NCBI GenBank assembly: GCA_029688905.1
Contig: JARULB010000007.1
Location: 62,001-126,000, forward strand
DNA: 64,000 bases
From: Balneolales bacterium ANBcel1
GTDB lineage: Bacteria; Bacteroidota; Rhodothermia; Balneolales; Natronogracilivirgulaceae
Reading direction: 5' to 3'
The notes under the pieces are model-generated. The model ran no database searches. It was not told the origin of the DNA and saw only the letters and a program-made list of their open reading frames with translations. Positions 30,736 through 39,392 of this stretch are shown here, in pieces; within the stretch, counting starts at the first letter, position 1, and every line of letters starts with the position of its first letter. Position numbers and translations under genes: made by a program.

Positions 30736-32019
<1,284 letters not shown>

Positions 32020-32220
32020 CCACACCTTCCCGGCACGACAGACAGTTTTTCCTGTTCCTGTCATATTCGGAATTAGATGGTTTGCGCACGTCAGCTACGC
32101 GAACGGCGTACTGCGACCGTATGTCTCCGTCACGGTGCATGATGGATGAACGGCGCCTTTTTGAATCATTTGGAACCGTATTGTCATTTTACACACCTTC
32201 TTGCTAAACCGACCAGATCA

Positions 32221-33396
32221 ATGGCTGATTCGTTTCAAGTCACCTACTTGCTGAGTTTGGCCGACGGAGAGAATGTAAATGACCGTGTTCTGGCCCTGCA
32301 ACTGGAGCAAAGTGCCGAGCTGCCGGAATCGGTTGTAGCTTCCATGGGGGTTTCAGGCGTCAAAGGCCGGATTGTGCAACAGTCCCGCCCATCCCCCCGG
32401 CAGGTTCTTGTAACCATTGCGTGGCCGGGTCAAAATCACGCCGGCGAAATCACCCAGTTTCTCAATATTCTGTTCGGTAACATCTCTCTGAAACGGGGCA
32501 TTGCAATTTTGGACATACAGTGGGATGCGTTGACTCCGGACCTGTTTAAAGGTCCCGCGTGGGGCATTGACCGTTTTCGCCAGGACTGGGATATCCCTCA
32601 CAGGGCACTCAGCTGTACAGCCCTCAAACCCATGGGATATCCAACCGGCAAACTGGCTGCCATCGCACATCAGTTTGCTGAAGGCGGGATCGACATTATC
32701 AAGGACGATCACGGCCTCACCAATCAGGAGCCGGCACCCTTCCGGAAGCGCGTTGCCGCTTGTGTTCAGGCAATGGATAAAGCCGCTCAAAACACCGGCC
32801 GGCGTTCCCGGTACTTCCCCAACATTACAACAGAACCGCACCTTCTCCGGGAACGTTATGAAATGGCGGCGGAACTTGGAGCCGACGGCGTGCTGCTGGC
32901 ACCCATGCTGACGGGGCTCGCTTCCATGCACTATCTGGCTCAGCTCCCGGTGGACCTCCCGATTATGGCACATCCGGCATTCAGCGGACCATTTGTGGCG
33001 CATCATCCATCAGTCCATGCATTGAAAAACAACGGAGCAGCATCCGAAGAGGCTTCCGGCATCCCGGGAGAGAGCCTTCACGGCTTTGAGCCCGGCCTGT
33101 TTTTCGGTGCATTGTGGCGAGCTCTCGGGGCCGATTTTGTGATTTATCCCAATGCCGGCGGCCGTTTTTCATTTTCACCTGACACCTGCTTGTCAATCAA
33201 TAAAGAAGCACTGAGGCAGGATATCCCTTTCCCCCGCACTTTTCCCACACCAGGCGGAGGAGTTCGGGCAGACCGTATGCCATACTGGCTGCAGCAATAT
33301 GGAAAAGAGATCACCTTTCTGATCGGAGGAAACCTTTACGAGGATCCCGCAGGTATTTATCATGCATCCCGTGCGTTTTCGGAAAGCCTTCGTTAG
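32221..33396 (+). CDS. RuBisCO-like protein (form IV)
   Basis: A 391-aa member of the RuBisCO large-subunit superfamily. The N-terminal ferredoxin-like domain (~1-125) is followed by a TIM barrel. The barrel has CTALKPMGYPTGKLA (~132-146; K136 matches RuBisCO K175, but K177 is Met) and GGIDIIKDDHGLTNQ (~155-169; KDDH replaces KNDE, so the Lys and Asp ligands are kept and Glu is His). It also has IMAHPAFSG (H251) and PNAGGRFSFS (~310-319), and the phosphate-binding TPGGGVRAD and IGGNL segments. True carboxylase activity is excluded by these changes. The adjacent cupin suggests a role as 5-methylthioribulose-1-phosphate isomerase, as in Rhodospirillum rubrum; this is inference. ATG 32221 is chosen; an in-frame start at 32146 adds residues outside the fold. 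Confidence 0.9.
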   Translation: MADSFQVTYLLSLADGENVNDRVLALQLEQSAELPESVVASMGVSGVKGRIVQQSRPSPRQVLVTIAWPGQNHAGEITQFLNILFGNISLKRGIAILDIQWDALTPDLFKGPAWGIDRFRQDWDIPHRALSCTALKPMGYPTGKLAAIAHQFAEGGIDIIKDDHGLTNQEPAPFRKRVAACVQAMDKAAQNTGRRSRYFPNITTEPHLLRERYEMAAELGADGVLLAPMLTGLASMHYLAQLPVDLPIMAHPAFSGPFVAHHPSVHALKNNGAASEEASGIPGESLHGFEPGLFFGALWRALGADFVIYPNAGGRFSFSPDTCLSINKEALRQDIPFPRTFPTPGGGVRADRMPYWLQQYGKEITFLIGGNLYEDPAGIYHASRAFSESLR

Positions 33397-33477
33397 TTTT
33401 CGTCAATACCTTGCGGCCAACACCAGACACACCGCCTGTAACATGATCCGGCGACTCCTGAAAACCCGGCACGTTTA

Positions 33478-33523
33478 GATCATCCGAGATAATAAAGCCG
33501 GGTATCGTTTCGGATTCATGATC
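33478..33523. repeat. Inverted repeat between RLP and cupin genes
   Basis: GATCAT (33478-33483) pairs with ATGATC (33518-33523), and CCGA (33484-33487) with TCGG (33510-33513), giving an imperfect stem with a ~22-base loop. No T-tract. It lies in the 164-base gap between the two genes and could modulate expression of the cupin or be a binding site. Confidence 0.35.
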
Positions 33524-33560
33524 ATCCACAGGCAGCAATTGAAAAATCAAACCGCTAACC

Positions 33561-34022
33561 ATGTCCGATCAATCAAAAATCATACGGTCTGAAAACTTCA
33601 CCTGGCCGGAAATTAAAAAAAAAGAGTACAAGTCAGATCAGCCCGGTTTTCAAGGCATTTCGAGATTTGTTCTGCTGGGTGAAAAGGAGGACGAGCAGGG
33701 GCTGAATATGCAAACCCGCTACTTTGAAATTGAGCGTGGCGGTTACTCGTCTCTTGAAAGACATCGCCACCCGCACACGGTGGTTATTGTCAAAGGACAA
33801 GGTTCAATGATACTCGGCAACTCCTGTCATAACCTGGAGCACATGGACACGGTTTACATCTCTCCCGGAACCGTACACCAGTTTCATGCCGACCTTGGCG
33901 AGCCTCTGGGGTTCATTTGCGTCGTTGACCGTTACCGGGACCGGCCGGAAACACCTGTGAGCAGGCAACAGCTCGAGACATGGATCTCCAATCCCGAGGC
34001 GCGAGATAAAGCCCGCATATAG
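33561..34022 (+). CDS. Cupin protein, probable 1-methylthioxylulose-5-phosphate sulfurylase family
   Basis: A 153-aa single-domain cupin. Metal-binding motif 1 is LERHRHPHTVVIVKGQG (H68, H70, H72; ~66-81), lacking the usual Glu, and motif 2 is ISPGTVHQFHADLGEP (H106; ~100-115). The C-terminal GFICVVDRYRDRP (~118-130, with Cys120) resembles the cupins associated with RuBisCO-like proteins. In Rhodospirillum rubrum such a cupin turns 1-methylthioxylulose-5-phosphate into DXP with release of methanethiol. Placement right after the RuBisCO-like gene supports the same reaction here; this is inference. The N-terminal ~20 residues are charged. A strong terminator follows. Confidence 0.8.
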   Translation: MSDQSKIIRSENFTWPEIKKKEYKSDQPGFQGISRFVLLGEKEDEQGLNMQTRYFEIERGGYSSLERHRHPHTVVIVKGQGSMILGNSCHNLEHMDTVYISPGTVHQFHADLGEPLGFICVVDRYRDRPETPVSRQQLETWISNPEARDKARI

Positions 34023-34058
34023 ATGAAACTCAGAAACCTTACGGCTTGCTGCCGATTC

Positions 34059-34087
34059 CGGCCATTCAAATGGCCGCGCTTTTTTTG
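34059..34087 (+). terminator. Rho-independent terminator after the cupin gene
   Basis: Perfect 7-bp stem CGGCCAT (34059-34065) with ATGGCCG (34070-34076), loop TCAA, then CGC and a run of seven T. It closes the RuBisCO-like protein/cupin unit. Confidence 0.9.
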
Positions 34088-34138: not shown

Positions 34139-34211
34139 GCGAGAATAGCTCAGCTGGTAGAGCACAACCTTGCCAAGGTTGGGGTCGCGGGTTCGAGTCC
34201 CGTTTCTCGCT
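34139..34211 (+). tRNA. tRNA-Gly (GCC)
   Basis: A 73-base cloverleaf: acceptor GCGAGAA with TTCTCGC, anticodon stem CAACC/GGTTG around TTGCCAA (anticodon GCC), T-arm GCGGG-TTCGAGT-CCCGT. Discriminator base T; CCA not encoded. Confidence 0.96.
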
Positions 34212-34220
34212 CAAGACATC

Positions 34221-38699: not shown

Positions 38700-39392
38700 T
38701 CAATCCTCGGAATCAGGATCTGGTCCGGGCGCTTCTTCATCGATCTCCAGATCATCGGTATCGTTGTCATCATCGTCATCGTCTTCGCTCTCGGCCTTGC
38801 GCGCCGCTTCCAGTTTTTTCCGGGCCTTTGTTTCTGTGGCACCGGCACTTCTGAGGATAACCGCCAGGTCGGAGTGTTCATTCTCAACCGCAAAATTGAG
38901 TGCCGTATATCCGTTTTTGTCCTTGTGCTTAACATTGGCACCCTGCGAAATCAAAAAACGAACCACTTCCATATGACCCTCTCGCGCGGCAAACATGAGG
39001 GCTGTCTGACCCCAATGCTGGGTACCGTTAATATCAGCTCCCTTTTCCAGCAACAGCTTTACCGCCTCCAGCTGACCCTCTCTTGCGGCAATGATCAATG
39101 CAAGCGGACCGATTTCCGCACCATTTTCAAACAGCAGATGCATCATCTCCAGGTTACCGTTTTCAGCCGCCCGGTTCAGAGCCGTACCACCGATCTTGTT
39201 TCTGATATTAACTTCCGCCCCCTTCTGCAGCAACAGCCTGACCGCCTCCATCTGGTTGTTCTGAGCGGCATAAATGAGGGGCGTCGATCCTGTAGCAGAG
39301 ACCGCATTGATGTCAACTCCTTCCTTGAGGGCGGCTTTTAAAGCTTCAAGATCACCTGCCTTGCTTGCTTCAATGAGAGGCGAAGATTCCAT
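38700..39392 (-). CDS. Ankyrin repeat protein with acidic tail
   Basis: A 230-aa protein of about six ankyrin repeats (e.g. GSTPLIYAAQNNQMEAVRLL, GQTALMFAAREGHMEVVRFL, GYTALNFAVENEHSDLAVIL), each ~30-33 residues, with one shortened at ~95-102 where the usual loop is missing. After the repeats comes a Lys/Ala-rich helix and an Asp/Glu tail (~203-230). No signal peptide, so it is probably a cytoplasmic protein-protein interaction module; the partner is unknown. It lies on the same strand as, and 109 bases downstream of, fmt. Confidence 0.9.
   Translation of the reverse strand: MESSPLIEASKAGDLEALKAALKEGVDINAVSATGSTPLIYAAQNNQMEAVRLLLQKGAEVNIRNKIGGTALNRAAENGNLEMMHLLFENGAEIGPLALIIAAREGQLEAVKLLLEKGADINGTQHWGQTALMFAAREGHMEVVRFLISQGANVKHKDKNGYTALNFAVENEHSDLAVILRSAGATETKARKKLEAARKAESEDDDDDDNDTDDLEIDEEAPGPDPDSED

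Follow-up and report, generated by a model that had tools for sequence, protein, structure and literature searches.

A predicted MTA-isoprenoid shunt encoded by a conserved RuBisCO-like protein and cupin gene pair in Balneolales

Background

The MTA-isoprenoid shunt joins methionine salvage to isoprenoid synthesis through a RuBisCO-like protein (RLP) and a cupin. In the literature searched, experimental descriptions of the shunt were found only for Rhodospirillum rubrum (RLP Rru_A1998, cupin Rru_A2000) and Rhodopseudomonas palustris (RPA2169, RPA2170). RLP1 of R. palustris isomerises 5-methylthioribulose-1-phosphate in vivo and in vitro, and rates of 1.2-1.3 per second were reported with this substrate in R. 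rubrum and R. palustris (PMC5893883). The methylsulfurylases of the shunt are the cupins Rru_A2000 and RPA2170 (PMC4958253, PMC5893883). Meiothermus, Nitrococcus and Halorhodospira have been named as likely carriers (PMC4958253), and a survey recorded the RLP-cupin pair in five Dxs-less species (PMC10663253).

A comparable locus lies in a 64,000-nucleotide stretch of DNA (the window) from Balneolales bacterium ANBcel1, a salt-lake-type bacterium whose order lies within the phylum Balneolota of the FCB group. It resembles the R. rubrum and R. palustris systems in both protein families, in the adjoining position of their genes and in the catalytic residues, as well as in the presence of mtnA and dxr and the lack of mtnB and mtnD. 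It differs from them in its phylum, in having no recognised MtnP, in its separate branch in both protein trees, in a variable insert in the RLP and in the purA gene upstream. Pairs in Halorhodospira and other Ectothiorhodospiraceae, known from sequence, share the gene order RLP-cupin but belong to another phylum and have other upstream neighbours. Their RLPs form the sister group of the Balneolales RLPs (support 81/81), and their cupins are the nearest outside Balneolales in a weakly resolved cupin tree.

The initial annotation knew of no description of the shunt in this lineage. Balneolota are indeed unnamed in the shunt literature found, which is weak evidence of novelty because subscription journals lay mostly outside the search, but earlier work had recorded the pair beyond the alphaproteobacteria (PMC4958253). 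The finding extends a known pathway to a new taxonomic group and does not amount to a new kind of system.

Architecture of the locus

The form IV RLP gene and the small cupin gene on the same strand, both proposed earlier, are confirmed, the former by PF00016 and a match to the solved structure 3qfw, the latter by PF07883 and matches to 3ibm, 3kgz and 3jzv (Table 1). The open frame of the RLP extends over 32146-33396; homologues begin at the ATG at 32221 in the alignment, their matches starting at about residues 24-27 of that frame, so the start assigned in the initial annotation is correct. A gap of 164 bases separates the RLP from the cupin. What had been called a strong terminator is present as a hairpin (stem 34059-34076) followed by a T-rich tail, but 5 such patterns were found where shuffled sequence gives an expected 3.3, a similar frequency, and the pattern alone is not above chance.

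Upstream of the RLP, the window encodes secD, secF, a STAS protein and purA, while an SLC13-type transporter lies 3' of the unit on the opposite strand. An Rfam scan for riboswitch control returned only four tRNAs in the window. Elsewhere in the window, an ankyrin-repeat protein (38703-39392, minus strand) adjoins a small plus-strand HTH protein resembling phage repressors (38268-38690).

Table 1. Coordinates of the features discussed. Rows with an L number give positions within that locus; all others refer to the window.
Feature	Position	Strand	Remarks
purA, adenylosuccinate synthetase	30739..32019	+	PF00709, 612.8 bits; conserved upstream context, outside the pathway
RLP gene	32221..33396	+	391 aa; form IV, DeepYkr clade; predicted 5-methylthioribulose-1-phosphate 1,3-isomerase
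Variable insert of RLP	32989..33084 (approximate)	+	residues about 257-288, after the HPAFSG strand
Cupin gene	33561..34022	+	153 aa, single-domain; predicted 1-methylthioxylulose-5-phosphate methylsulfurylase
Hairpin and T run, intrinsic-terminator-like	34059..34086	+	pattern scan, 7 pairs; closes the RLP-cupin unit
tRNA-Gly	34139-34212		3' of the hairpin
PNP-superfamily loci of the host genome	L050 1411-2247; L051 1408-2232; L052 1015-2187		two PNPs and an AMP nucleosidase
Split-transketolase RLP loci	L182 2062-5119; L183 562-3619; L155 4908-9107; L147 4771-9113; L162 2904-6089		

The RLP belongs to the DeepYkr clade

The window RLP matches PF00016 with 65.5 bits (cut-off 30.1), and its nearest solved relative is 3qfw (E 2.5e-56), with 37% identity to R. 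palustris RLP1. This structure is identified as RLP1 (RPA2169) because its title names an RLP of R. palustris and RLP2 is a separate entry, 2qyg. The AlphaFold model (pLDDT 92.7) likewise has 3qfw as its top Foldseek match. Photo-clade proteins match the RLP more weakly by sequence and by fold. The best NCBIfam matches are MtnW models, at 175 and 155 bits, far under their cut-offs of 409 and 514.

A tree of 74 proteins, which included R. palustris RLP1, four MtnW proteins, OiaX-type proteins and form I RuBisCO and contained no Photo-clade anchors, placed the window RLP in a Balneolales clade (22 rows, 100/100) inside DeepYkr (64 rows, 99/98). The four MtnW proteins formed their own clade (100/99), and the OiaX-type proteins and form I RuBisCO fell outside DeepYkr. 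The window RLP therefore groups with R. palustris RLP1 and not with MtnW, as the earlier reading anticipated.

Residues K136, KDDH 161-164, H251, R315, G346-G347 and G369 are invariant in an alignment that includes 3qfw, the glycines of the G346-G347 and G369 region belonging to the phosphate site. KDDH and the other catalytic positions are unchanged over 37 RLPs, and Lys136, KDDH, His251 and the phosphate-site glycines are the same in R. palustris and Balneolales. The metal-site motif is spelled KNDE in form II enzymes. The alignment bears out both the KDDH motif and the loss of the second KPK lysine reported earlier: the window RLP has KPM in place of KPK, while R. palustris RLP1, the nearest functional enzyme, combines KPQ with KDDH. 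Assignment to form I-III RuBisCO was rejected on these two features. The insert following the HPAFSG strand varies in length; among the Balneolales RLPs aligned it is long only in the window's own family and short or absent in the others, and it is modelled with low confidence (pLDDT 54-75).

The cupin matches the methylsulfurylases of the shunt

The three solved relatives of the cupin are 3ibm (E 4e-32), 3kgz (2e-25) and 3jzv (4e-22), corresponding to Hhal_0468, RPA2170 and Rru_A2000. We infer the identity of 3kgz as RPA2170 from species and similarity. The next solved cupin, at E 4e-7, is about fifteen orders of magnitude away. The structural model (pLDDT 94.2) has the same entries as its best Foldseek matches (3kgz, 3jzv and 3ibm, ranks 1-4). 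His68, His70, His72, His106, Glu66 and Cys120 are invariant over 30 cupins and also occur in Rru_A2000 and RPA2170. The cupin tree mirrors the main split of the RLP tree, with Balneolales beside Ectothiorhodospiraceae and the alphaproteobacterial cupins on another branch. By E-value gap, Foldseek rank and tree position, the window cupin falls with the RLP-linked cupins.

Distribution and gene order across Balneolales

Among 129 Balneolales genomes, 74 from five families carry the RLP and 70 the cupin; 69 have both, five the RLP only and one the cupin only (Fisher p 3e-29, a value that ignores shared ancestry). Each of the five RLP genomes lacking the cupin is split into hundreds of contigs, and two of them have an RLP truncated at a contig end. 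The gene mtnA occurs in 95 of the 129 genomes and in 72 of the 74 with RLP, the two exceptions being 73% and 86% complete, and SpeD occurs in 66 of the RLP genomes. The RLP, the cupin and mtnA show matching patterns of presence across genera. Neither mtnB nor acireductone dioxygenase was found in any of the 129 genomes. Separately, 23 genomes have mtnA and no RLP, and 17 of these also lack SpeD.

A scan of named genomes yielded more than 500 RLP relatives, with named Balneolales carriers including Fodinibius halophilus, F. roseus, F. sediminis and F. salsisoli. The gene order purA-RLP-cupin is conserved: of 40 named Balneolales loci, 37 have purA directly 5' of the RLP and 38 have the cupin within 200 bp 3' of it. 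Taken with the finding that both proteins are monophyletic, this arrangement suggests that the pair has been inherited vertically within the order. In three relatives the RLP and cupin lie 6-12 kb apart, and no pathway gene that would extend the operon was seen among the intervening genes listed. Two proteins of one such region were scanned, revealing an amidophosphoribosyltransferase-like protein between the RLP and the cupin and a helicase beside the cupin.

Pathway genes and the entry step

Profile searches of the host genome (3.3 Mb, 98% complete) recovered the expected mtnA (444 bits, cut-off 279) and dxr (466 bits, cut-off 316), together with SpeD (136 bits). They detected no mtnB, acireductone dioxygenase or MtnN, and the PF00016 search returned a single protein and hence no second RLP. 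The predicted lack of mtnB and acireductone dioxygenase thus holds in the host and across the order. No pathway gene was recognised on reading the ORFs neighbouring the host mtnA. The sole PF00596 (class II aldolase) protein of the genome is most likely AraD, because its gene lies directly 3' of one that reads as ribulokinase. A route through MtnB was rejected, given its lack in the order; one through an Ald2 aldolase appears less likely in view of this position of the only class II aldolase.

The initial annotation had also proposed a check for mtnP or mtnN: no MtnP exceeded the curated cut-off in any of the 129 genomes, and MtnN was missing from the host. The only PNP-superfamily proteins found in the host genome were two trimeric-type PNPs and an AMP nucleosidase. 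By elimination, MTA itself or its deamination product methylthioinosine may be a substrate of one of the two phosphorylases. One host PNP has Asp at the position expected for Asn243 of human PNP, which we took to be MTAP-like. Solved bacterial PNPs also carry Asp at the equivalent position, so this residue does not settle the first step. Balneolales have MtnA but no recognised enzyme to supply its substrate, a testable gap.

Proposed pathway and alternatives

We propose that MTA from polyamine synthesis would be converted to 5-methylthioribose-1-phosphate, which MtnA would isomerise to 5-methylthioribulose-1-phosphate. The RLP is predicted to turn this into 1-methylthioxylulose-5-phosphate. 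The metal-binding cupin, with a thiol, would then remove the methylthio group, yielding 1-deoxyxylulose-5-phosphate and methanethiol. Dxr would take the former into isoprenoid synthesis, and the latter could be reassimilated to methionine. The sequence data establish the gene identities, the clade, the conserved active sites, the co-occurrence and gene order, and the lack of the competing downstream enzymes; the substrates, products and flux of this scheme, and the thiol used by the cupin, we infer.

That the pair constitutes an MTA-isoprenoid shunt is our main reading, with a probability of roughly 0.84 and a predicted activity. The link between methionine salvage and isoprenoid synthesis that was suggested at the outset is supported by clade, cupin affinity, the presence of mtnA, dxr and SpeD, and the lack of mtnB and acireductone dioxygenase; none of the observations that could have spoken against it, namely an RLP placed with MtnW, a cupin apart from the RLP-linked cupins, or a classical pathway or second RLP, was made. 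In its favour, the RLP matches the tested R. palustris RLP1 in both sequence and fold, as the cupin does RPA2170 and Rru_A2000. Against it, the tested alphaproteobacterial enzymes sit on branches separate from Balneolales and Ectothiorhodospiraceae in both trees, so that the assignment of function spans about 31-42% identity; MtnP is lacking in the 129 genomes and MtnN in the host, and 23 genomes carry mtnA without RLP.

A related proposal, which we consider unlikely, is that the Balneolales RLP also or mainly acts on 5-deoxyribulose-1-phosphate, converting it directly into DXP. This substrate would derive from 5'-deoxyadenosine, a by-product of radical-SAM enzymes, and a repurposed purine nucleoside phosphorylase would take the place of MtnP at the entry step. 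If true, two SAM wastes would feed isoprenoid synthesis. The stricter version, in which the RLP mainly salvages 5'-deoxyadenosine, with MtnA forming 5-deoxyribulose-1-phosphate and RLP 1,3-isomerisation giving 1-deoxyxylulose-5-phosphate with no need for a cupin, appears very unlikely. The chemistry would be parallel, and the DHAP shunt is known to handle both MTA and 5'-deoxyadenosine (PMC10986504, PMC12632272); yet 69 of the 74 RLP genomes also carry the cupin, which fits a methylthio substrate, and 66 carry SpeD, from which MTA arises.

It is just as improbable that the pair works as some other isomerase and cupin on a different sugar phosphate, its co-occurrence with mtnA reflecting shared ancestry only. 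The Balneolales branch is known from sequence alone and its RLP shares 37% identity with R. palustris RLP1, which leaves room for such a change, but the active-site residues are invariant from one to the other and RLP, cupin and mtnA coincide across genera. An MtnW-type diketo-methylthiopentyl-1-phosphate enolase of classical methionine salvage, which the top NCBIfam matches and a similar fold might suggest, is rejected as almost certainly wrong, given the sub-cut-off scores, the position outside the MtnW clade, KDDH in place of KDDE, and the order-wide lack of MtnB and acireductone dioxygenase.

RLP loci with a split transketolase

In 14 of 80 named loci, a split transketolase stands beside the RLP, and no cupin was found in the stretch examined around them. 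These loci occur in Clostridium, Chloroflexota, Lokiarchaeota and Rhizobiaceae plasmids, and most fall in the second half of the DeepYkr tree (23 rows, 99/91). An mtnA gene also lies at the locus in Clostridium drakei, C. ljungdahlii and a Lokiarchaeota bin, and the Rhizobiaceae plasmids show the order mtnA-transketolase halves-RLP, one with mtnK in front. Like the Balneolales loci, they encode a DeepYkr RLP with identical invariant residues, often with mtnA nearby; unlike them, they have transketolase halves instead of the cupin and sometimes mtnK. This arrangement may point to a different fate for 1-methylthioxylulose-5-phosphate or 1-deoxyxylulose-5-phosphate, and the loci may represent a second, undescribed RLP-based salvage variant.

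Significance

If the shunt is a conserved, apparently inherited trait of this FCB-group order, as its occurrence in 74 of 129 genomes and five families would imply, then the bacteria of the order, which are abundant in salt and soda lakes, probably recycle MTA independently of oxygen and release methanethiol.
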